Assembly: GCF_002005565.1 (NCBI RefSeq)
Contig: NZ_BDJC01000004.1
Coordinates: forward strand, 62,001 to 126,000
Reading direction: 5' to 3'
Length of the DNA: 64,000 bases
DNA from: Streptomyces sp. JHA26
GTDB lineage: Bacteria > Actinomycetota > Actinomycetes > Streptomycetales > Streptomycetaceae
A program made the translations under genes and the position numbers. Of this stretch, positions 41,873 to 60,445 are shown piece by piece; position 1 is the stretch's first letter; the number at the start of each line of letters is the position of its first letter. The notes below the pieces were generated by a model that made no database searches, was not told the origin of the DNA, and was given only the letters and a program-made list of their open reading frames with translations.

Positions 41873-42208
41873 TCAGCCGGCGCTGGTCCGGTCCCAGGTG
41901 TAGAAGCAGCGCGCCATCGCGTCCTTGGGACTGCGCCAGGTCGCCGGGTCGTACGCCGACACGTACGGTTCGAGCCGCTCGCTGACACGGCGGAACTCCG
42001 GATGCCCGGTCAGCCGGCCGATGGTCGGGGCCGGGTCCTCGTCGCTCTCGATGAGGTGCAGGTACACACCGTCACCGAACTCGAAGAGACTGCGCCGGTT
42101 GACGCCCACCAGGTGGGGCAGCTCGCCGCGGTCGGACTCGGCGAACACCTTCGCGATGTCCGGTGCCGCGCCCGGTGCCATCCGGGCGACGATCAGGGTG
42201 TGGTGCAT
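41873..42208 (-). CDS. whiE-ORFVII: whiE ORFVII, TcmI-family polyketide cyclase
   Basis: A 111-residue protein of the TcmI/second-ring cyclase family, dimeric ferredoxin-like fold (HTLIVARMAP start, YLHLIESDEDP, and a C-terminal FYTWD). It is the last gene of the spore-pigment operon, 40 nt after the aromatase gene. It probably guides late ring closure of the polyketide. ATG at 42208 with GGGCACC-like spacing. Confidence 0.9.
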   Translation of the reverse strand: MHHTLIVARMAPGAAPDIAKVFAESDRGELPHLVGVNRRSLFEFGDGVYLHLIESDEDPAPTIGRLTGHPEFRRVSERLEPYVSAYDPATWRSPKDAMARCFYTWDRTSAG

Positions 42209-42248
42209 GGGGAGGTGCCCTTCGTCGGTGCCAGTCGGTTCGGCGGGG

Positions 42249-42999
<751 letters not shown>

Positions 43000-43096
43000 G
43001 CGAGGTACTCCTTCACTCGGATCGGCGCGCACCGGGGGCGGCGCCCGCTCGGGATGGTGGTGGCTCGGGGCGGGGTGGGACGGGTCCGGCCGGCGC

Positions 43097-44344
43097 TCAG
43101 CCGGTGGGCGCGCCCTGCCGCAGGACCAGCGCCGAGTTGCCGCCCATGAGCCCCCGGCCGAGGACCAGGGCCGTGCGCGGCTCGGCGGCCCGGGCCCGGC
43201 CGGCCACCAGGTCCAGGTCGTGGCAGACGTCGTACACGTTCGGGGTGGGCGGGATCAGCCCGTGCTCCATGGCGAGCACCGCGGTCGCCACGTCCAGCAC
43301 CGGTGCCGCGCAGTACGCCCGCCCGGTCCCGGTCTTGGGCGCGGTGACCGGCACCCGCCGCGCGTGCGGCCCGAGGGCGTCGGCGAGCGCGAGGGCCTCG
43401 GCCCGGTCGGCCTCCGGCACCCCGAGGGCGTCCGCGAACACCACGTCCACCTCCTCGGGCCGGCAGCCGGCCTCCGCCAGCGCGCCCTCGATCGCCCGCG
43501 CCAGCCCGGCCCGCGACTCCTCCCAGCGGGAGGCGCCGGTGAAGGTCGCCGCGTGCCCGGCCACCGTCGCCCGCACTTCGGCCCCGCGCTCGCGCGCCGC
43601 GCCCTCCTCCTCCAGCAGGAGCACGGCCCCGCCCTCGGCCGGCGCGAACCCGCAGGCCGCCTGCGTGAACGGGCGGTAGGCACGGTCCGCCTCGGTCGCC
43701 CGGCTCAGCTCGGGGTAGCCCAGCTGGCAGACGATCGAGTACGGGGCCAGCGGCGCCTCCGTCGCACCGCACACCACCGTGTCGGTACCGCCCCGCACGG
43801 TCAGTGCCGCGTGCGCCAGGGCGTCCAGACCGCCCGCCTCGTCGGCGGCGACGACACCGCAGGGACCCTTGAAGTCGTTGCTGATGGAGATCTGGCCGGT
43901 GCTGGCCGCGTAGAACCAGGCGATCGACTGGTACGGGCCGACGTACCGCGAGCCCTGGCCCCACAGGTTCTGCAGCTCCCGCTGCCCGAACTCGCCGCCG
44001 CCCGACCCCGCCGCGGTGACCACGCCCACCGAGTACGGCGAGGCGACGTCACCGCGGCCGAACCGCGCGTCGGTGAGCGCGAGCTGCGTGGCGCTCATCG
44101 CGAAGTGCGTGAACCGGTCGGTCTGGACGAGATACCGCTCGTCGATCAGTTCCGACGGGTCGAAGCCGCGTACCTCGCCCGCCACCTTCAGCGGCAGGTT
44201 CCCGCAGCCCTCCCGGGTGACGGGCCCGAGACTGCTGGTGCCGTCCGCGACCGCCTTCCAGTGCGCCTCCGCCCCGATGCCGTGCGGGGACACCACGCCG
44301 AGGCCGGTGACGACCGCCCGCCGGGGCCGTTGCCGTCCGCTCAT
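43097..44344 (-). CDS. whiE-ORFIV: whiE ORFIV, ketosynthase beta (chain-length factor)
   Basis: A 415-residue KS-beta that pairs with ORFIII and helps set chain length. It is KS-like ([12 protein letters not shown]) but the active-site Cys position is Glu169 ([10 protein letters not shown]), where most chain-length factors have Gln. The ATG overlaps the ORFIII stop by 4 nt (ATGA). The Cys in PCGVV is not at the catalytic position. Confidence 0.95.
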
Positions 44345-45630
44345 CGCGGCCCTCCTTCCAATCCGGGACCAGAACCGGAACCGCTGAGTACGACGGCGGA
44401 CTGGAAGCCGCCGAAGCCGCTGCCCACCGACAGCACGTGCCGAAGCGAACGCTCCCGGGCCTCGCGCGGCACGTAGTCCAGGTCGCACTCGGGGTCGGGG
44501 GTCGTGTAGTTGGCCGTGGGCGGCACCACCTGGTGGTGCATCGCCAGCACGCACGCGGCCAGCTCGATCGAGCCGATCGCGCCGAGCGAGTGGCCCACCA
44601 TGGACTTGATCGAGCTCATCGGCGTCCTGTACGCGTGCTCGCCCAGCGACCGCTTGACCGCGGCGGTCTCGTGCCGGTCGTTCTGCTGGGTGCCGGAGCC
44701 GTGCGCGTTGACGTAGTCGACGGCGGTGGGGTCCAGCCGGGCCATGTCCAGCGCGGTGTCGATCGCCCGCGCCATCTCCAGGCCCTCCTTGGTGAGCCCG
44801 GTCATGTGGTAGGCGTTGCCGAAGGTCGCGTAGCCGGAGATCTCGCAGTACACGTCCGCGCCGCGGGCCCGGGCGTGCTCCAGGTCCTCCAGGACGAGCA
44901 CCGCCGCGCCCTCGCCCATGACGAAACCGTTGCGGTCGGCGTCGAAGGGCCGGGAGGCGTGCTCCGGGTCGTCGTTGTTCGGCGAGGTCGCCTTGATGGC
45001 GTCGAAGCAGGCCATGGTGATCGGCGATATCGGGGAGTCCGCCGCGCCCGCCAGGCACACGTCGACACGTCCCTCGGCGACGGCGTGGTAGGCGTACCCC
45101 ACCGCGTCCAGACCGGACGTGCACCCGGTGGACACGGTCTGCACCGGCCCGCGCACCCCGAACTCCTCGGCCACGGCCGACGAGAGCGTCGCCGGGGTGA
45201 AGGCCCGCTCCAGGTGCGGCTCGGCCCGCCGGTCGTCCACGTCCCACCGCGAGCCGCGCTCGCTGACCAGGACGTAGTCGTGCTCCAGCCGGGTCGTGCC
45301 ACCGACCGCGGTGCCCAGGGTGGCACCGGCCCGCCACGGGTCCAGCCGGCCCGGGTCGAGCTCCGCGTCGCGCACCGCCTCGGCGGCGGCGACGAGCGCG
45401 AACTGCACGTACCGGTCGCACCGCTGCACGGTGGCGAGGTCCAGCCCGAACGCGGACGGATCGAAGTCGCACTCGGCGGCGATCTGCGACCGCAGCCCGG
45501 CCGGATCGAAGAGGGAGATGCGGCGTGTCGCCGTACGGCCGTCGGACAGCAGGCCCCAGAACTGGGGCACGCCGATCCCGCCCGGGGCGACGACGCCTAT
45601 GCCCGTGACGGCGACCCGTCGCCGCGTCAT
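44341..45630 (-). CDS. whiE-ORFIII: whiE ORFIII, ketosynthase alpha
   Basis: A 429-residue type II PKS condensing enzyme. Catalytic Cys170 ([10 protein letters not shown]), His310 (VNAHGSGT) and His347 (SMVGHSLG) are all present. It extends malonyl units with ORFIV and ORFV to the spore-pigment polyketide (long chain, possibly dodecaketide as for curamycin-like pigments). ATG at 45630 overlaps ORFII by 4 nt. Expressed late in aerial hyphae in S. coelicolor. Confidence 0.97.
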
Positions 45631-46094
45631 GACACCACCTCGGCCGCGGCGGCGGGACGCCCGTGCCCGGCGCACCCCGCGTGGCCGTCGAGCGGCAGGG
45701 CGTTGCCCTCCGCGTCCTCCGTGTCGACGTGGCCGAGCTCCGGCCGCGGGGCCAGCGGCCCCAGGTGGAACACGATCCGCGCCTCGACGTCGCCGACGTT
45801 GCGGAAACGGTGGCGCACGTTCTGCGGGATCAGCACTCCCTGCCCGACGGAGAGCGCGTGCGGCGCCCCGTCCAGGTCCACCTCGAGCGCGCCGTCGGTG
45901 ACGTACACGAACTCCTCGGAGTACGGGTGGTAGTGCTCGGCGATGCGGTCGCCGGGCTGCACGATGGCCACGCCCATGAAACCGCTGGTCGACCCGGCGG
46001 TGGTGGGCGTGAGAAGGGCGCGGAGGTCTCCGCCGCGGCGCGTGTTGGGCGGGATGTCGCCGAGGGAGACGATGCGTACCTGCTGGTCTGTCAT
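45627..46094 (-). CDS. whiE-ORFII: whiE ORFII, cupin-type cyclase
   Basis: A 155-residue single cupin domain. Metal-binding residues appear in [13 protein letters not shown] and VRHRFRN. It is a pigment-specific cyclase/stabiliser. I chose ATG at 46094 (GGAG 8 nt upstream); a GTG at 46103 in frame is also possible. Overlaps the KS-alpha gene by 4 nt. Confidence 0.92.
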
Positions 46095-46171
46095 GTCGGT
46101 CACTCCGGAAGGACGGAAGGCGGTGGGGAAGACCGGCGCGCGGCCCGGCCCGCGGGCCGCGCGCCGACGGG

Positions 46172-47395
46172 TCAGGAGGGGAGCGAACGCCGGTCGGTCA
46201 GCGGGGTCATGCGGGCCCGCGCGAGCAGCCGCGACAGCGTCCCGGCGTCCGACAGGGGCCCGTCGATGCCGACCGAGGCGGTGTCCAGCAGCCGCTCGGC
46301 CACCGCGACACCGGCCGCGTCGGCCGACCCCTCGCGGTCGTGCAGCCCCAGGACGAACGCGGGCGCCTCGTCCGGGTCACCGGCCACGTCGACGAGCCGT
46401 ACGACCAGGTCGTCGCGGTGGAAGACGGTGGCGGCGAGGACCGGACCGTCCGGGGTGTACACGGCGGACGCGTCCTGCCGGGCCAGCAGCCGGGCCAGTT
46501 CCGGCCCCGCACCGGCCCGGACCGGATAGAGCAGCGCACACCGCTGCGGGCGCGCCTCGGCCCCCGTCGCGGACGCCACGTGGTGGACGGCCGGCATCGC
46601 GGCCAGGGTGAAGAACCGCCGGGCGGAGTGCGGGTCCTTCAGGTCGCGGTCCTGTTCCAGGTACGGGTTCAGGGCCTCCTCGACCGCCCGCACCCCGGGC
46701 TGCCGGGCGACGTGGCGCAGCGCGGTCTGCAGATCGCCCCGCACCTCCACCGCCCGCACGATCCGGTTGCCGTGCATGAACAGCGAGGTGCGCAGCAGCC
46801 GGGTGTTCTCGTCGACCTGCGCCTCGGGGGAGGCGTAGTTGGACAGCAGCTCGGCGACCTTGGCCTCGCTGCCGGGCCGCACCGTGAAGGTCAGGGCGTG
46901 CCGGACGACGTTGCCCCCCACCCGGGGAGCGGCGCGCAGCGCCTCACCGGCCGCGGCGGACGCCCCGGCACCGTCGGCCGCGGTCTCCCGCAGCACGCTG
47001 TAGCGCAGGGAGCGGGTGTCGCGGACGCAGTCCTGCAGGGGCTCGACGGCCGTCAGGTGCTCGTCGCTGTTGACCCACGCCAGGAAGGGCGCCGCGCTCT
47101 CCCACTCACTGGTGAGCAGCCACTGCGTCGGGTTCTCCAGGGACTGGCACAGCTGGTCGCTGACATGACCCGGCACGGCCGCGACCCGGTGACGGATGCG
47201 CTCGTAGGCGTCGAGGAACTCCTGCTGCATGCCGTCGTGGATGTCCAGCATCAGCACGACCCGCACGCGCGATCCGTCGAACGCGGATATCGAGACGCCG
47301 CCCGCGTCCGCGGACACGGCGGCCGTCGCCCCGGCACCCGTGGCTGCGGCATTCGTCGATCCGGTGTCCGACGACACGACGGGAGAGACCGTCAT
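46172..47395 (-). CDS. whiE-ORFI: whiE ORFI, SchA/CurD-like protein
   Basis: A 407-residue protein with an N-terminal antibiotic-biosynthesis-monooxygenase-like domain ([22 protein letters not shown]) and a C-terminal SchA/CurD-type region ([18 protein letters not shown] and later [14 protein letters not shown]). The family occurs only with spore-pigment clusters, as far as I know. ATG at 47395 with GAGGTGGG upstream. First gene of the seven-gene operon; a 77-nt gap separates it from ORFII. Confidence 0.9.
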
Positions 47396-47663
47396 CCGGC
47401 CCACCTCTTCTCAGGGGAACTTCCTCGTGTATGTGGGGATGCGACCGCCGCTGCGCGTGCCGTGTGCGGCGGGATGCGCCGGTCGCGTAAGCACGATCGT
47501 GGGCCGTGCCCGCGGGGACCGCGAACCAGACGGGTTAAGCGGGTGAAGCCTGAGCCGTCGCAGGCGTCGCGGGGCATGCATGAGAGCCCGGCCCCCTGCA
47601 TGTCACGGGACCTGCCACTCGACGACGGCCCGACCGGGGCCCGACGCAATGGAGGAACGCACG
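47396..47663. promoter_or_regulatory. divergent whiE promoter region
   Basis: 268 bp between ORFI (minus) and ORFVIII (plus). In S. coelicolor this gap holds the two developmentally controlled whiE promoters, one depending on the sporulation sigma factor SigF. I cannot place exact boxes here; a GTTAAGCGGGTGAAG stretch near 47534 lies upstream of ORFVIII and could be part of one. Confidence 0.6.
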
Positions 47664-49328
47664 ATGAAAGAAAGAGCCGATCGATCGGAACCCGGGGGCC
47701 ACCGCGTCCCGGTGCTGATCGTCGGAGGTTCCCTGGTCGGCCTGTCGACCTCGGTTTTCCTGGGCCGGCTCGGCGTTCGGCACACCCTGGTGGAACGGCA
47801 CGCCGGCACCTCCATCCACCCCCGGGGACGAGGCAACAACGTCCGCACGATGGAGCTGTTCCGGGTGTCGGGCACCGAGCCGGCCATCCGGCGGGCCGCC
47901 GCCACGCTGGCCGACAACCACGGCATCCTCCAGACCCCGACGCTGGTCGGCGACGCGGGGGAGTGGCTGTTCAGGAAGATCGACCCGGGCAACGGACTCG
48001 CCCGGTTCAGCCCCAGCGGGTGGTGCCTGTGCAGCCAGAACGACCTCGAGCCCGAACTGCTCGCCCACGCCCGCGAACTCGGCGGCGACCTGCGCTTCGG
48101 CACGGAACTGCTGTCGTTCGACACGGACGCCGACGGGGTCACGGCGGTCGTCGGGAACCGGGAGACCGGCGAGCGCACCACGATCCACGCGAACTACCTG
48201 GTGGCCGCCGACGGCCCCCGCAGCCCCGTCCGCGAGCGGCTCGGCATCGGCCAGAGCGGCCCCGGCGACCTCTTCCACAACATCAGCATCACCTTCCGCT
48301 CCCGCCGGCTCGCCGACCTCGTGGGCGACCGCCGCTTCATCGTCTGCTACCTCACGGACCCGGACGCGGACGGCGCCCTGCTCCCGGTGGACAACCGCGT
48401 GGACTGGGTCTTCCACGCCCCCTGGCACCCGGAGAACGGCGAAACGGTGGAGGACTTCACCGACGAGCGCTGCGCCGACCACATCCGCCGCGCGGTCGGC
48501 GACCCGGACCTCGACATCGAGATCACCGGCAAGGCCCCCTGGCACGCCGCCCAGCGCGTCGCCCGCAGCTACCGCTCGGGCCGCGTCCTGCTGGCCGGCG
48601 ACTCGGCCCACGAGATGTCCCCCACCGGCGCGTTCGGCTCCAACACCGGCATCCAGGACGCCCACAACCTCGCCTGGAAGCTGGCCGCCGTCCTCGACGG
48701 CTGGGCCGGCGACGGCCTCCTCGACACCTACGACGCCGAACGCCGCCCGGTCGCGGAGGCCACCAGCGCCCGCGCCGCCGCCCGCTCCGCCGAGCACAGC
48801 CACCCCGGCTTCGCCCCGCCCCCGGCGGCCGGAGGCGGCGGCGGCCCGCAGCGCGGCATCCTCAACGTCGCCCTCGGCTACCGCTACCCCCAGGGCGCGG
48901 TCGTCGGCGCCGACCCCGCGACGCCGGTGGTCCCGGAGGAACTCTCGCTGACGGGCGAACCCGGCAGCAGGGCCCCGCACCTGTGGCTGCTCCGCGGCGA
49001 CGACCGCATCTCCACGCTCGACCTCTACGAACGCTCCCTCGTCCTGCTCAGCGACGCGACGGAGCCCAGCGGCTGGCACGAGGCGGCGACGCGGCTGGCC
49101 GACGAGATGCGGATCCCGCTGGCGTCGTACCGGGTGGGCAAGTCCCCGGACGCCGACCTGCTGCCCGAGAACGACGACACCGACTGGGCGAAGGCCCACG
49201 GCGTGACGCGCGGCGGGGCGGTCCTGGTGCGCCCCGACGGCTTCGTGGCGTGGCGCGCCCCGGGACCGGCGCCGGACCCCGCGGCGATGCTGCGCCAGGT
49301 GGTGACGTCGGTCCTGTCCCTGGCCTGA
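47664..49328 (+). CDS. whiE-ORFVIII: whiE ORFVIII, FAD-dependent polyketide hydroxylase
   Basis: A 554-residue aromatic-ring hydroxylase (PheA/TfdB class). FAD motif GGSLVGLSTSVFLGRLG at the N-terminus, central DG motif (VAADGPRSPVRERLG), GD motif (LLAGDSAHEMSPTGAFG) and a thioredoxin-like C-terminal domain. It tailors the spore pigment after the PKS step. ATG at 47664 with GGAGG 8 nt before it; an ATG at 47649 in frame has poorer context. Divergent from ORFI, as in S. coelicolor. Confidence 0.94.
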   Translation: MKERADRSEPGGHRVPVLIVGGSLVGLSTSVFLGRLGVRHTLVERHAGTSIHPRGRGNNVRTMELFRVSGTEPAIRRAAATLADNHGILQTPTLVGDAGEWLFRKIDPGNGLARFSPSGWCLCSQNDLEPELLAHARELGGDLRFGTELLSFDTDADGVTAVVGNRETGERTTIHANYLVAADGPRSPVRERLGIGQSGPGDLFHNISITFRSRRLADLVGDRRFIVCYLTDPDADGALLPVDNRVDWVFHAPWHPENGETVEDFTDERCADHIRRAVGDPDLDIEITGKAPWHAAQRVARSYRSGRVLLAGDSAHEMSPTGAFGSNTGIQDAHNLAWKLAAVLDGWAGDGLLDTYDAERRPVAEATSARAAARSAEHSHPGFAPPPAAGGGGGPQRGILNVALGYRYPQGAVVGADPATPVVPEELSLTGEPGSRAPHLWLLRGDDRISTLDLYERSLVLLSDATEPSGWHEAATRLADEMRIPLASYRVGKSPDADLLPENDDTDWAKAHGVTRGGAVLVRPDGFVAWRAPGPAPDPAAMLRQVVTSVLSLA

Positions 49329-49922: not shown

Positions 49923-52241
49923 ATGAGCCACGCCGCCCGGCTGATGCGCGCGCTGACCGACCCGGAGTCCACCGACGAGGACGAGCGCCCGGACCCGTCC
50001 CGGGTCACCGACGAGGAGCTCGGCGACCTGTTCGTCGCGGCCTACCGGGTGGACACCTCGGACGCACTCGTGCGGCGTACGGCAGCCGCCGCGGTCCGGG
50101 CCGCGGCCGGGGAACGGCAGCCGCGCTACACGCCCGCCGCGTGCCGCCGGATGTTCGACCTGCTCGTCGAGGAGTGCGAGGAACACGGCTGGGCCGACCT
50201 CACCCTGGGGCTCGACGCACTGCGGCACTGCACCGGACCGCGGCCCGACGTGTCCGAACCGGCCCGCGCCCTGGTCGGGTTGTGGCAGGACAAGGCCTCC
50301 GTGCGCCAGCCGTACGCGCTGCTCGCGGTCGCGGCGCTCGCCGGGGACGAGACGTCGGCGGCGGCCGTGGAGTGGCTCTCCCGCGACGTCGGCCCGATCG
50401 TCGCCGACGAGACGGCCGTCATCGCCCGACTCGCCCCGGCCGAACAGGCGGCACTGTCCGAGATGGGCCGGGAGAACAGGTTCGTCCCGCCGCCGGCCCA
50501 CACCTGGCACGCGTCGGCCGAGACCCCGGCGTACGTGGCGTTCACCCGCCGCGCGCTGGAAGCGGCCGCCGACCGCACCGACGCCATCCGCGCCGGCGAG
50601 ATCCCCTACCGGGCGGACAAGGCGTTCACCGACCGGGAGGTCACCACGCTCGGCCAGGCCCTGCGGGTCGCGCTGCTGCGCGACGAACCCTGGCTGCCCG
50701 AGCTGTTCGACCGACTGCTGCCCGGCATCGCACTCGCCCCCACGGCCGCGAAGACGCTCCCGTCCCAGGCCCTCCTGTACGAAGTGGTCCGCGCGGCACA
50801 GGACTTCCCGACGCCCGAGCTGGCCACCGCGATCCGCACCGTGCGCGGCACCGTCCGGCACGCCGGGGTGCCCAGGCAACTGGACAAGATGCTCAAGAAG
50901 GTGGACGCGGCCCTGGCCGAACGCACCGACGTGGCCCTCCGGCTGCCCAGAACGGACTTCGACGACGACGGCGTCCTGCGCCGGCCGGCCGGCGACCACG
51001 AAGCGGTCGTCACGGTCACCGACACCGCCACGCTCACCTGGGAGAAGGACGGCCGCCCGCTGCGCACCGTCCCGGCGCCGGTCCGCCGCGACCACGCCGC
51101 CCTGGTCAAGGAACTCCGCGACCTGGTGAAGCGGATCAACGCCCAACTGGCCACCCTCCTACGGGCCCTGGAGGGCGGCTTCACCACCGACGCCGTCCAC
51201 CCGTACGGCTGGTGGCGCACCGAGCTGGCCGGCCACCCCCTCGCACGGACCCTCGTGGGCCGGCTGATCTGGGAGATCGAGGTCGCGCCCGGCGAGTGGC
51301 GGGCCGTACTCCCCGAGACGGACCGGGCCGCCCTGCCCGACGCCCCCGACGACGCCTCCGTACGGCTCTGGCACCCGCTCCGCTCCGCCCCCGACGCCGT
51401 GGGGGCCTGGCGGGACCTGCTCACCGAACGGCGCATACGCCAGCCCTTCAAGCAGGCGTTCCGCGAGATCTACCGCCTCACCCCGGCCGAGGAACGGACC
51501 GGCGCCTACTCGAACCGCTTCGCCGGTCACCTCGTCCACTACCGCAGGATGTTCGCCCTGTTCCGCGCCCGGGGCTGGCGAAGCCGCCTGCTCGGCCCCT
51601 GGGACGCAGGGGACGGCGACGAGGCCGAGCGCACCCTGGCGGCGGGGGAGTGGCGGATCCGCTTCCGCCACACCTGGTCCGACCAGGCGGGCGAGAACGA
51701 ACTGGCCACGACCGACCAGGTGCGCTTCAACCGCCGGCAGGAGGACACCTGGCACGAGACCCCGCTCGCCGACGTACCCCCGCTGGTGTTCAGCGAGGCC
51801 ATGCGCGACGTGGACCTCTTCGTCGGCGTAACCTCGATCGCCACCGACCCCGACTGGACCGACGGCGGCGACCGGCGCGCCTACTGGGAGCGGGCGGCGT
51901 TCGGCGAGTTGCCGGAGACCGCCCTGGCCCGCCGCGACGCGCTGGAACGACTCCTGCCCCGCCTGAAGATCGCCGACCGCTGCACCCTCGACGGCCGCTT
52001 CCTGCGCGTCCGGGGCGATCTGCGCACCTACAAGATCCACCTCTTCTCGGCCAACGTCCTGATGGAACCGGACGACAGCTACCTGTGCGTCGTCGCGGCA
52101 CGACGCCCGGCGGACCGCACGGTCTTCCTCCCCTTCGACGACGAACGGCTCGCGCTGATCCTCAGCAAGGCGTTCCTGCTGGCCGCCGACGCCGACATCA
52201 CCGACGAGACCATCCTCCGCCAGATCGATCGAGGTGCCTGA
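49923..52241 (+). CDS. DUF4132-domain protein
   Basis: A 772-residue soluble protein ending in the DUF4132 domain (C-terminal region of MolR-like proteins). Diagnostic C-terminal pieces are FREIYRLTPAEERTGAYSNRF, VPPLVFSEAMRDVDLFVGV, GDLRTYKIHLFSANVLM and VFLPFDDERLALILSKAFLLAADADITD. The N-terminal half is helical, HEAT-like in appearance, without a WGR domain. ATG at 49923 follows GGGAGGGG. Its stop overlaps the next ATG (TGATG), so it is coupled to a small Gly-Gly-tailed beta-grasp protein. Biochemical role unknown. Confidence 0.85.
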   Translation: MSHAARLMRALTDPESTDEDERPDPSRVTDEELGDLFVAAYRVDTSDALVRRTAAAAVRAAAGERQPRYTPAACRRMFDLLVEECEEHGWADLTLGLDALRHCTGPRPDVSEPARALVGLWQDKASVRQPYALLAVAALAGDETSAAAVEWLSRDVGPIVADETAVIARLAPAEQAALSEMGRENRFVPPPAHTWHASAETPAYVAFTRRALEAAADRTDAIRAGEIPYRADKAFTDREVTTLGQALRVALLRDEPWLPELFDRLLPGIALAPTAAKTLPSQALLYEVVRAAQDFPTPELATAIRTVRGTVRHAGVPRQLDKMLKKVDAALAERTDVALRLPRTDFDDDGVLRRPAGDHEAVVTVTDTATLTWEKDGRPLRTVPAPVRRDHAALVKELRDLVKRINAQLATLLRALEGGFTTDAVHPYGWWRTELAGHPLARTLVGRLIWEIEVAPGEWRAVLPETDRAALPDAPDDASVRLWHPLRSAPDAVGAWRDLLTERRIRQPFKQAFREIYRLTPAEERTGAYSNRFAGHLVHYRRMFALFRARGWRSRLLGPWDAGDGDEAERTLAAGEWRIRFRHTWSDQAGENELATTDQVRFNRRQEDTWHETPLADVPPLVFSEAMRDVDLFVGVTSIATDPDWTDGGDRRAYWERAAFGELPETALARRDALERLLPRLKIADRCTLDGRFLRVRGDLRTYKIHLFSANVLMEPDDSYLCVVAARRPADRTVFLPFDDERLALILSKAFLLAADADITDETILRQIDRGA

Positions 52242-52633
52242 TGGCCGCCGTGACCTTCCGGGACGAGACGCCGACGGGCAAGCGGATCGCCGAGTGGGAA
52301 CTGACCGGCCTGCCCGACCGGATGACGGTACGGGAGCTGATCGCCCTCCGGGTCCGCGAGGAGACCACCCGCCACCACGCCCACCCCGGCGACCACTTCA
52401 CCGGCCTGGTCCGCCCCGAGGACGCCGAACCGGCCCCGAACGGCCACCGCCTCCCCGAACCCCGCCCCGTCGACCCGGCCCGCCAGACGGAGGCAGCCGA
52501 GAACGCCTTCCTGACCAACGGCTTCTTCGTCCTGTCCGACGACCGCCAACTCGAGTCCCTCGACGAGACGGTGGACCTGACACCGGGCCCCACCCTGGTC
52601 TTCGTCAAGCTGGTCGCCCTGGTCGGCGGCTGA
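52241..52633 (+). CDS. beta-grasp (MoaD/ThiS/ubiquitin-like) protein with C-terminal Gly-Gly
   Basis: A 130-residue protein. The N-terminal strand pair (VTFRDETPTGKRIAEWELTG), a helix TVRELIALRVREE, and a C-terminal block of strands (FFVLSDDRQLESLD, then TLVFVKLVALVGG) follow the MoaD/ThiS pattern, including the terminal VxGG that in those proteins is adenylated or thiocarboxylated. A middle insertion with FTGLVRPEDAEPAPNG and ENAFLTNGFFV is extra. The stop codon directly follows Gly-Gly, so no processing is needed. Overlaps the DUF4132 gene by one base. I recall similar small proteins next to DUF4132 genes elsewhere. No E1-like or JAB protease gene is adjacent. Confidence 0.75.
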   Translation: MAAVTFRDETPTGKRIAEWELTGLPDRMTVRELIALRVREETTRHHAHPGDHFTGLVRPEDAEPAPNGHRLPEPRPVDPARQTEAAENAFLTNGFFVLSDDRQLESLDETVDLTPGPTLVFVKLVALVGG

Positions 52634-53269: not shown

Positions 53270-54265
53270 GTGGACACGGCTGAGCGGTACCGGCGGTTCG
53301 CGACGATGGAGGCGCGGGGCCACTCCCCGACGTACGAGCGGCTGACCGCCGCGATCGCTGACACCCCGAGCCTGTTGGCGATGATCGACCGACTGCCGAC
53401 TGCCAAGCGGCAGCCCAACCTGCTGCTGGCCGCGGTGCGCTTCCTGGGCGGACCGGTCGACGACCTCGCCGCATTCCGCGAGTGGACCACCGCCCACTGG
53501 GCCCGAGTGCGCGCCACGATGCTGGAGCGGCGGACTCAGACCAACGAGCCGGGCCGGTGCGCCGTCCTGCTTCCCGTGCTGGCCCGGCTGCCCCAGCCGC
53601 TGGCGCTCATCGAGGTCGGCGCCTCGGCCGGACTGTGCCTCTATCCCGACCGCTACCGCTACCGCTACGACGAGGGGCCCATGTTCGGCCACCCGGACAG
53701 CGCGGTCGTCCTGGAGTGCGGCACGACCGGCGCCGTACCGCTGCCCACCCGGCTGCCGGAGGTCGCCTGGCGGGCCGGTGTCGACCTGAACCCGCTCGAC
53801 GTGGCCGATCCCCAGGACACACGCTGGCTGGAATGCTTGGTCTGGCCCGAACAGCACCAGCGCCTGGCCCGGTTGCGGGACGCCGTGCGGATCGCGCGCA
53901 CCGAGCCCCCGACGCTGGTGCGCGGCGACCTCAACGAGACCGTCCGCGACTTGGTCACCGCCGCCCCGGCGGGCGCCACCCCGGTCGTCCTCCACAGCGC
54001 GGTCCTCGCCTACCTGCCGCCCGAGGAGCGCGAGGCCTTCACCACCACCATGCGGGAGCTCGGCTGCCCCTGGATCTCCAACGAGGCCCCGGGTCTCCTC
54101 CCTGCCGTGGACCACCGGCTGCCGTCCGACCCCCGCCCCGACCGCCTGCTGTTCACCCTTGCCCTGAACGAGCACCCGCTCGCCCGCACCGGCCCGCACG
54201 GCCAGCACCTGGAGTGGCTGCCCACGCAGGCGGTGCCTGATGAGCGGTCAGGTGCCCGCCACTGA
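53270..54265 (+). CDS. DUF2332 protein
   Basis: A 331-residue soluble protein of the DUF2332 family, which resembles SAM-methyltransferase folds. Visible: RYRRFATMEARGHSPTYERLT and later LALIEVGASAGLCLYPDRY with a G-x-S-x-G-like motif, then VDLNPLDVADPQDTRWLECLVWPEQ. GTG at 53270 after AAAGGGGAG. Probably a genuine gene that sits between the duplicated segments; substrate unknown. Confidence 0.87.
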   Translation: MDTAERYRRFATMEARGHSPTYERLTAAIADTPSLLAMIDRLPTAKRQPNLLLAAVRFLGGPVDDLAAFREWTTAHWARVRATMLERRTQTNEPGRCAVLLPVLARLPQPLALIEVGASAGLCLYPDRYRYRYDEGPMFGHPDSAVVLECGTTGAVPLPTRLPEVAWRAGVDLNPLDVADPQDTRWLECLVWPEQHQRLARLRDAVRIARTEPPTLVRGDLNETVRDLVTAAPAGATPVVLHSAVLAYLPPEEREAFTTTMRELGCPWISNEAPGLLPAVDHRLPSDPRPDRLLFTLALNEHPLARTGPHGQHLEWLPTQAVPDERSGARH

Positions 54266-57993: not shown

Positions 57994-58326
57994 GCGCTGC
58001 AGTGGAGGCTCAACGTGCAGGTCAGAGGGCTAGAACCGAAGGCCGAGTGTCGAGCCGTCCACAGATAGTCCAGGGCCTCACACTGTGTGCTGACGCCTCG
58101 CTGCCACGAGATGCTCGCGAGTCTAGAGCGGCCCTCGCACCAGCGGGGCCATTGCGGTGACGTTTCACAGTTATACCTTTAAGGCCCTTCTCCTGTGCAT
58201 TGTCCAGTTTTATTCCGGCTGGCAAACGACGTGCCGCCCGAGAATCTGTCTGTACAACTCCCTACAGACGTGCGATCGGTGCTACTGTCATCCGCAGCAA
58301 CAGGACGCCTACAGAGGGCAATTGAC

Positions 58327-58935
58327 ATGAGACTTGCTGATGTCTGCACCATCAGCACCGGCTACACGCCGCGGACTCGCTTTCAGTCCGTAGAGGTAGG
58401 CGGCGTACCCATTGTGCAACTTGGCGACTTGTCGCCTGATGGCCACATTGATGTCGCGGGTTTGATCAAGGTTCCGCATAATCCTGGGCTTGACCGCTAC
58501 ATGGTTCGTCCCGGAGACGTTCTATTTCGCTCACGCGGCGCACGCAATACGGCCTACGCCCTGAGTGAAGAGTTCAAAGATCCTGTTGTAGCCGTCTCCC
58601 CACTTTACATATTGCGCCCCAACAGGAGCTTGATCCTACCGAATTACCTTGCGTGGATCATAAATCAAGGTCCAGCGCAACGTTACTTCGACAGTACGGC
58701 CCGCGGCACCAATATGCGGATGGTGCCCAAAACCAGTCTGGATCTTCTCGAGATTCGCCTTCCTGCCATAAAGAGCCAAGAGTCAATCGTGGCCCTGGAC
58801 GCGCTGGCGGAGCGTGAGCTCCGCCTGTCGAATCTTGCCACTCAGAAGCGGCGCCAGCTGGTCAGCCACCTACTCGTTAACTGGCTTAACAAAGTAAATG
58901 ACGAAACCTCAGAGCAAGAGGAAGATGATGACTGA
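58327..58935 (+). CDS. hsdS: half-size type I specificity subunit HsdS-like
   Basis: A 202-residue protein with one target-recognition domain: LADVCTISTGYTPRTRF, then VPIVQLGDLSPDG, YMVRPGDVLFRSRG, a loop with ARGTNMRMVPKTSLDLLEIRLPAI and a C-terminal helical spacer (QESIVALDALAERELRLSNLATQKRRQLV). Full HsdS has two such units, so this is a half subunit that could dimerise or be an exchange partner. ATG at 58327 has GAGGG upstream; the frame opens 44 codons earlier without a start context. It overlaps hsdM by 8 nt, so both are co-translated. Confidence 0.85.
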   Translation: MRLADVCTISTGYTPRTRFQSVEVGGVPIVQLGDLSPDGHIDVAGLIKVPHNPGLDRYMVRPGDVLFRSRGARNTAYALSEEFKDPVVAVSPLYILRPNRSLILPNYLAWIINQGPAQRYFDSTARGTNMRMVPKTSLDLLEIRLPAIKSQESIVALDALAERELRLSNLATQKRRQLVSHLLVNWLNKVNDETSEQEEDDD

Positions 58936-60445
58936 CCGACTCACACAACAGCAGGTCAATCAAACGGCATGGGCAGCATGTGACACCTTCCGAGGCGTTG
59001 TAGATGCCGGCCAGTACAAGGACTACATCCTGGTGATGCTGTTCCTCAAGTACATCTCCGATCTATGGGACGATCATCTCAAGACGTACAGGCAGCAGTT
59101 TGGCAACGACGAGATTCGCATCCGACGCCGTTTGGAGCGTGAGCGATTCGTCCTCCCGGAAGGGGCCAGTTTCTACGATCTATACGAGCAGCGGACTGCG
59201 GCCAATATCGGCGAGCTGATCAACATTGCACTGGAGCGAGTCGAAGACGCGAACAGGGCGAAGCTGGACGGTGTTTTTCGCAACATCGATTTCAACTCAG
59301 AAGCAAACCTCGGACGGGCGAAGGACCGCAACCGTCGTCTCAAGAACCTGCTGGAAGATTTCGCCAAGCCTGCCCTTGACCTTCGTCCTTCGCGGGTCAC
59401 TGAGGACATCATTGGTGAATGTTACATCTACCTTATCTCCCGATTCGCTTCGGACGCCGGAAAAAAGGCCGGAGAGTTCTATACGCCCGTAGCAGTCTCA
59501 CGGTTGCTTGCTCGACTTGCGGCCCCCAAGGCCGGCGACACAATTTGCGACCCCGCCTGCGGCTCTGGTTCGTTGCTGATTCGAGCGGCGGAGGAGGTCG
59601 GCTCTGACAACTTCGCTCTCTACGGGCAAGAGGTGAATGGAGCGACCTGGGCTCTAGCGCGTATGAACATGTTCCTGCACTCCAAAGACGCTGCCAGGGT
59701 TGAATGGTGCGATACCCTCAATAGCCCGTCGCTGGTCGAGGGTGACCACCTCATGAAGTTCGACGTAGTCGTAGCTAATCCACCATTCTCGCTCGACAAG
59801 TGGGGGGCAGAGAATGCGACAGACGACCAGTACGGACGGTACTGGCGTGGTGTCCCACCCAAGTCGAAGGCCGACTATGCCTTCATCACTCATATGGTGG
59901 AAACAGCTAAGCGGCAGAGTGGTCGCGTCGCGGTTATCGTGCCGCATGGCGTTCTCTTCCGTGGCGGAGCGGAAGGCGAGATCCGGAAAAAGCTTATCAA
60001 GCAAAATCTTCTTGATGCTGTTATCGGTCTCCCGGCCAATCTCTTCACAACAACCGGCATCCCAGTCGCCATCCTAATCTTCGACCGTTCCAGGGAGAAA
60101 GGGGGAGTCAATGAGGCGCGTACTGATGTGCTTTTCATCGACGCGAGCAAGGATTTTGTGACCGGTAAGACTCAAAACGTCATGCAAGAGGAGCACATCG
60201 CAAAAATTCTGGAGACATTCAGGGGTCGCACGGAGGTTGACAAGTACTCTCACCGGGCGAACCCGGAAGAGATCGCTGAGAATGAGTTCAACCTTAATAT
60301 CCCTCGCTACATCGATGCTTTCGAGGTAGAAGAGGAGGTAGACATCACTGTCCTCCAAAGCGAGATTGAAAACCTCGAGGACGAACTAGCTGATGTCAGG
60401 AAGCGCATGACGGGGTACTTGAGGGAGCTTGGTATCGATGTATGA
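58928..60445 (+). CDS. hsdM: type I restriction-modification DNA methyltransferase HsdM
   Basis: A 505-residue N6-adenine methyltransferase. N-terminal helical HsdM domain (DYILVMLFLKYISDLWDDHL), SAM motif DPACGSGSLLIRAA, catalytic NPPFSLDKWG, and FFTTTGIPVAILIF-like C-terminal elements. It modifies the target adenine with HsdS. I chose ATG at 58928 (AGAGGA 5 nt upstream); ATG 58925 and 58898 are also in frame. Overlaps the preceding S gene by 8 nt and the following hsdS by 8 nt. Confidence 0.95.
   Translation: MTDRLTQQQVNQTAWAACDTFRGVVDAGQYKDYILVMLFLKYISDLWDDHLKTYRQQFGNDEIRIRRRLERERFVLPEGASFYDLYEQRTAANIGELINIALERVEDANRAKLDGVFRNIDFNSEANLGRAKDRNRRLKNLLEDFAKPALDLRPSRVTEDIIGECYIYLISRFASDAGKKAGEFYTPVAVSRLLARLAAPKAGDTICDPACGSGSLLIRAAEEVGSDNFALYGQEVNGATWALARMNMFLHSKDAARVEWCDTLNSPSLVEGDHLMKFDVVVANPPFSLDKWGAENATDDQYGRYWRGVPPKSKADYAFITHMVETAKRQSGRVAVIVPHGVLFRGGAEGEIRKKLIKQNLLDAVIGLPANLFTTTGIPVAILIFDRSREKGGVNEARTDVLFIDASKDFVTGKTQNVMQEEHIAKILETFRGRTEVDKYSHRANPEEIAENEFNLNIPRYIDAFEVEEEVDITVLQSEIENLEDELADVRKRMTGYLRELGIDV

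Follow-up and report, generated by a model that had tools for sequence, protein, structure and literature searches.

Two genes that overlap by a single base lie in the 64,000-nt stretch of Streptomyces sp. JHA26 DNA that we analysed (hereafter the window; Table 1). At their junction, TGATG, the last base of the stop codon of the larger gene is also the first base of the start codon of the smaller, so that the overlap claimed in the original prediction can be read directly in the DNA. The same is true of the LVGG terminus assigned to the small protein, whose translation closes with FVKLVALVGG followed by TGA, and the identification of the large protein as a DUF4132 protein is borne out by a match to PF13569 far over the curated cut-off of 27 bits (E 6.9e-45; 153.6 bits). 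Just 5′ of the pair, translations point to what looks like a whiE-like spore-pigment-type aromatic polyketide cluster (window positions 41873–49328), and 3′ of it to type I restriction–modification genes, HsdS-like then HsdM-like (58195–60445). None of the PADLOC defence models matched the pair, and an anti-phage defence identity was dropped on that ground. Viral origin or mobility was also dropped, because a profile search of viral contigs returned no relative and phage records held no DUF4132; with the Bacteroides member described below as the query, viral contigs gave a single 20-residue match.

Table 1 Features of the gene pair, in window positions
Feature	Position	Strand	Remarks
DUF4132–DUF7737 partner gene	49923–52241	+	772 aa; helical repeats N-terminal, then DUF4132, with DUF7737 C-terminal
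Predicted helical part, HEAT/ARM-like, partner residues 1–340	49923–50942	+	From the structural model
DUF4132 domain, partner residues 377–552	51051–51578	+	Pfam match; carries the family motif
DUF7737 domain, partner residues 669–768	51927–52226	+	Follows the small protein in its occurrence
Gene of the small protein, read as β-grasp (ubiquitin-like), 130 aa	52241–52633	+	
Tail L-V-G-G, small-protein residues 127–130	52619–52630	+	Modelled as disordered; Gly-Gly end conserved

Fold and Gly-Gly end of the small protein

The small protein matched no Pfam or NCBIfam family, PF02597 (ThiS/MoaD) included, above noise, and its hhalign comparison with two ThiS/MoaD proteins of its own genome was not significant. 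An AlphaFold model built with 28 aligned homologues (mean pLDDT 89.6, pTM 0.83) places strands at residues 2–9, 15–24, 95–99, 102–104, 110–112 and 118–123, and helices at residues 30–47 and, as an insertion, 79–91. Foldseek returned nothing for this model with E below 0.001, and structural realignment put human MOCS2A/MoaD first (Z 7.7 over 80 residues, 3.7 Å), followed by mycobacterial MoaD (Z 6.9), SAMP1 (Z 6.8) and many ubiquitins (Z about 6.5–6.8). Although a Z under 8 is weak by itself, the matching topology, a set of hits drawn consistently from one family and the position of the tail together make a β-grasp fold a sound reading of the model, and predicted structure and PDB comparison thus agree with the β-grasp order first read from the translation. 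Independently of our model, I-TASSER had returned 5MPO (MOCS2) and 3PO0 (SAMP1) for the Deinococcus member (PMC9650054). Four separate PF02597 genes are present in the genome of the window. The same genome encodes a CysO-like protein (L225:7409–7696) that ends in VAGGMA rather than GG, near JAMM-protease-like and cysteine-synthase-like genes; this protein may need C-terminal trimming.

Homologues were collected by a search that did not depend on the tail, across 199 Streptomyces genomes, and 30 loci were read. GG stands directly before the stop codon in all 30 homologues, which fall into two subgroups with 65–70% and 44–51% identity to the window protein, compared with about 13 of ~775 other genes in the same stretches (about 1.7%); the Gly-Gly end is therefore not a matter of chance. 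After the addition of four relatives at 28–32% identity, 9 invariant columns remain, the last two of which are the final Gly-Gly. Conservation of the tail, on which the original prediction had been staked beforehand, thus extends from Streptomyces to distant relatives. The best 80 of 467 relatives from a GTDB-wide scan all end in GG at the stop codon (58 in LVGG and 22 in LAGG), a figure in which only the stop position is independent, because the scan pattern included the tail. The GG tail is also found in Deinococcus and Novosphingobium members (the latter ending in LTPLKGG), and in a compact member of 66 aa (L271:11367–11567, minus strand) that is missing the central part with the insert, keeps an LAGG end and adjoins an intact DUF4132 gene.

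Linkage of the small gene to a DUF4132–DUF7737 partner

In one Streptomyces subgroup the gene order is that of the window, DUF4132 first; in the other the small gene comes first, and the pair usually lies between sdhB and a VOC-like gene. Among the best 80 GTDB loci (from Streptomyces, Actinomadura, Nonomuraea, Herbidospora, Streptosporangium, Blastococcus, Micromonospora and others), DUF4132 was found within 6 kb of the small gene in 75/80, and the two genes abut in 71 by script and in three more that had been mis-parsed; a few intact small genes are without an adjacent partner. Where DUF4132 is upstream, the overlap is exactly one base in 33 of 39 cases. Two or three tandem DUF4132 genes or segments accompany one small gene at 27 of the 80 loci, many of them in Actinomadura (for example L121, L130, L131, L136, L144, L145 and L147, among others).

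The co-occurrence expected of a dedicated pair was found in either gene order, and two genome sets each gave a Fisher p of about 1e-34. Across the 199 Streptomyces genomes, 41 have both genes, 6 the small gene only, 1 DUF4132 only and 151 neither (p = 7e-35); across 395 genomes of the class, 28 have DUF7737 and the small gene, 4 the small gene only, 4 DUF7737 only and 359 neither (p = 2e-34). Among the discordant Streptomyces genomes, the sole DUF4132-only genome (G134) has a compact 66-aa GG protein, four small-gene-only genomes (G041, G046, G131 and G172) have DUF4132 remnants or fragments, and the other two (G178 and G190) are themselves weak hits. As to the genomes with DUF7737 only, decayed fragments are all that is present in G395 and G321, and G490 is a sub-cutoff hit. 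A true exception is G405, with an intact DUF4132–DUF7737 gene and no small gene; an Acetobacter locus (L233), with a full-length partner match and no small protein detected, is a possible second. In 120 loci, no further gene accompanies the pair nearly so regularly, E1, E2, JAB and desulfurase genes do not recur, and the window itself has no E1, JAB or cysteine desulfurase beside the pair, as had been noted at the outset. The gene at window position 53270, which we take to be DUF2332, has a counterpart in just one other locus of the 120.

Plasmid and second-chromosome records added pairs from Deinococcus, Novosphingobium and Bacteroides; in Deinococcus, the small gene stands 2 bp before a DUF5724–DUF4132–DUF7737 gene. 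The pair is inherited together in at least four bacterial phyla. In one single-contig genome, a single frame (L093:6338–9298, minus strand) encodes the small protein (…FIRLVPLAGG), a linker and DUF4132 in succession, and is either a natural fusion or the product of a lost stop codon. Decay fossils at three further loci (L094:9030–9437, L096:9274–10071 and L053:10403–10995) are either internal deletions, which fuse the beginning of the small gene with the last part of DUF4132, or a DUF4132 cut down to 53 aa.

Besides DUF4132, the partner matches DUF7737 (PF24879; E 3.3e-38); these two are the only domains over cut-off, and a WGR domain is absent. The DUF4132 family motif is H484-P485 … Q507-P508-x-x-Q511-x-x-R514, of which H484-P485 and most of Q507, P508, Q511 and R514 are common to DUF4132 proteins with and without the small partner. 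Conservation that is peculiar to the partnered proteins is seen in DUF7737, at six residues (Y703, H706, S709, K749, D761 and Q767) that are invariant in 8 diverse members. The DUF4132 paralogues in the genome of the window (L101–L103) and E. coli YehI have no Gly-Gly small neighbour, and in these proteins the family match stops before DUF7737, which L101 lacks and of which the E. coli genome contains none. YehK, encoded beside E. coli yehI, was considered as a hidden ubiquitin-like protein (Ubl) and rejected: it has 105 aa, no GG and no profile match. The partner of the small protein is therefore specifically the DUF7737-bearing form of DUF4132.

In the model of the 772-aa partner (pLDDT 80, pTM 0.50), helical repeats with a weak resemblance to karyopherin/HEAT proteins extend to about residue 340, and α/β structure follows after residue 350; in longer relatives, a HEAT-bearing DUF5724 occupies the position of the helical part. 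No solved relative was found by sequence. The C-terminal half (DUF4132–DUF7737) had no significant structure match in the PDB and no E1, E2 or E3 fold, a result that says nothing on novelty of fold, given the low pTM and the fact that the domains were not folded alone. With this pTM and no PDB match, any active site is a guess from the conserved residues.

Tail and partner were compared in natural exceptions. In eight genomes of one other family of the phylum (L214–L221), the homologue is without GG (ending, for example, in VLERSVVASGS) and has no adjacent DUF4132, and DUF4132 was found nowhere in these genomes, some of which are incomplete; for GG homologues in the same survey, DUF4132 was present in 5/5. 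The GG-less homologues form one clade with 100/100 support and therefore represent one evolutionary event, not eight. On one Bacteroides finegoldii plasmid, the small gene (L232:1580–1999) lies beside a DUF5724–DUF4132–DUF7737 gene and its product ends in LSGRLW, not GG, which indicates that the partner is not always in need of GG.

The Deinococcus radiodurans pair and published work

The published DdrO site of DRA0165, GGTTATGCTATTTACATAAC, has one exact copy in D. radiodurans DRR11 (L231:3233–3252), 82 bp upstream of the small gene, which identifies the D. radiodurans pair as DRA0165–DRA0166; in D. psychrotolerans, a site with one mismatch to the DdrO consensus occupies a comparable position. 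DRA0166 is the long form, DUF5724–DUF4132–DUF7737. Both genes belong to the DNA-damage regulon and are DdrO-dependent, and DRA0166 is induced by mitomycin C (PMC8533742). The small protein, as DR_A0165 (SEP068184), becomes more abundant after exposure to gamma rays and to H2O2, its deletion gives higher H2O2 survival, it binds Trx1, and its model has been likened to molybdopterin synthase, as MoaD-like (PMC9650054). The same study describes it as restricted to Deinococcus and without a DdrO site; both statements are contradicted by the homologues outside Deinococcus and the site reported here. The words 'ubiquitin' and 'glycine' are absent from that paper, which mentions neither the GG tail nor the pairing.

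A text search of two β-grasp surveys (PMC1779556 and PMC1949818) did not find a pairing with MolR, and a paper on vWA–MoxR conflict systems that covers Ubl systems (PMC7159879) does not mention WGR, SWIM or DUF4132. In the searchable literature, outside paywalled work, DUF4132 appears in three papers and DUF5724 in none. Within that same scope, the pairing, its breadth and the rule that links tail and partner appear to be undescribed. The original prediction of an undescribed module therefore stands for the pairing rule and the Gly-Gly tail, but not for the MoaD-like model (PMC9650054) or the damage regulon (PMC8533742), which had already been published for one member.

Interpretation and comparison with known systems

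We lean towards a single module, composed of a Gly-Gly carrier and a dedicated DUF4132–DUF7737 enzyme, in which the tail is activated and then delivered. The small protein would be a MoaD-, SAMP- or ubiquitin-like carrier with the flexible C-terminal Gly-Gly as its working end. In a putative complex, the helical-repeat arm of the partner and DUF7737 would hold the β-grasp body, and the tail may reach a conserved polar site of the partner, comparable to the insertion of the MoaD tail into MoaE. For activation of the terminal carboxylate, the likeliest candidate is a housekeeping E1 of the MoeZ/ThiF type, encoded away from the pair; a ThiF-family E1-like gene, MoeZ-like by its translation, is present in trans (L223:7154–8332). 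The activated end might then be delivered in the form of a thiocarboxylate, or of an acyl group for transfer to a target, and in Deinococcus DNA damage induces the module. Fold, tail and co-occurrence all argue for the original prediction of a modifier or carrier that has its own partner, and do not separate conjugation, thiocarboxylate formation and non-covalent docking.

The main rival, which we consider possible but doubtful, is that the small protein is a non-covalent regulatory or structural subunit, with its Gly-Gly conserved for docking in a groove of the partner and not for activation. The failure of E1, E2, JAB or desulfurase genes to recur beside the pair, the strict pairing with its one-base overlap, the loss of the tail where the partner is absent and the Bacteroides member that keeps its partner without GG are all consistent with docking, which, however, makes no obvious demand for a strictly terminal GG in so many lineages.

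Within the carrier module that we favour, sulfur transfer and conjugation are about equally likely, each of them unlikely when taken singly. For sulfur transfer, a thiocarboxylate made by a MoeZ-type E1 would feed the DUF4132 enzyme, possibly with a link to molybdopterin through MolR. MoaD is the closest fold, the tail (P/A-L-V/A-G-G) resembles MoaD tails, the D. radiodurans pair stands beside trxC and YeeE/YedE family genes and near modA, and a possible involvement of DUF4132 in molybdopterin biosynthesis is repeated in PMC8533742; yet the genome of the window already has its four ThiS/MoaD genes, moeA and moeB are unchanged with the DdrO regulon (PMC8533742), and the sulfur-related neighbours are not common to D. 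psychrotolerans or actinobacteria. For conjugation, DUF4132–DUF7737 would act as a ligase or transferase after DNA or oxidative damage, a role consistent with the DdrO control, with the site upstream of the pair, with the response of DR_A0165 to gamma rays and H2O2 and the altered survival on its loss, and with the speculation that D. radiodurans has a Ubl system that works with DRJAMM (PMC8832034). Against conjugation, no conjugates have been reported, the 157 co-immunoprecipitated proteins common to N- and C-terminally tagged DR_A0165 baits favour binding over attachment (PMC9650054), and the partner has yielded no E1, E2 or E3 fold.

More tentative still is a two-gene Ubl system, previously undescribed, spread over at least four phyla and damage-induced in Deinococcus, in which a partner unrelated to known E1, E2 and E3 enzymes, PafA and the MoaE/ThiG partners would handle the Gly-Gly tail unaided and pass it, or its sulfur, to targets. 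That an ordinary housekeeping MoaD/ThiS gene sits beside a MolR-like gene by chance would account for the fold and the GG end, but it is refuted by the co-occurrence, which holds whichever gene comes first and across several phyla, and, with no PF02597 match for the small protein and four separate PF02597 genes elsewhere, we regard it as extremely improbable.

The only indication of DUF4132 chemistry so far is the old molybdate phenotype of molR, and a dedicated Gly-Gly β-grasp partner gives the family a concrete, testable biochemistry. Two branches of DUF4132, with and without DUF7737, can now be separated, and for D. radiodurans, with its previously studied JAMM protease and suspected Ubl system (PMC8832034), the pair supplies a stress-induced candidate Ubl together with the identity of its partner. 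Should the tail prove to be conjugated or thiocarboxylated, the pair would be a further Ubl or sulfur-carrier system, with a new type of partner; should it be neither, it would be a clear case of a Gly-Gly tail retained for docking.

With MoaD/ThiS proteins (PF02597; human MOCS2A, CysO), the module would share a β-grasp fold, a flexible C-terminal Gly-Gly and a dedicated larger partner, but the small protein has no profile match, is about 130 aa long, carries an insert that separates helix 1 from the later strands, and is paired with DUF4132–DUF7737 instead of MoaE, ThiG or CysM, with no linked E1. The predicted β-grasp fold and exposed GG end also recall archaeal SAMPs and bacterial Ubls (SAMP1, TtuB and CBASS/Bil-type operons), whereas the present pair has no linked E1, E2 or JAB. 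MolR/YehI-type (WGR-)DUF4132 proteins have the same DUF4132 core with its H-P … Q-P-x-x-Q motif but are without DUF7737 and a Gly-Gly neighbour; the context of E. coli yehI is one of MoxR (yehL), vWA (yehP) and SWIM (yehQ) genes. D. radiodurans DRA0165–DRA0166 is a member of the module itself, in the long form that includes DUF5724, which the window form lacks. The kind of carrier is a known one, and, in the searchable literature, the type of partner, the rule that ties tail to partner and the distribution of the pair appear to be new.
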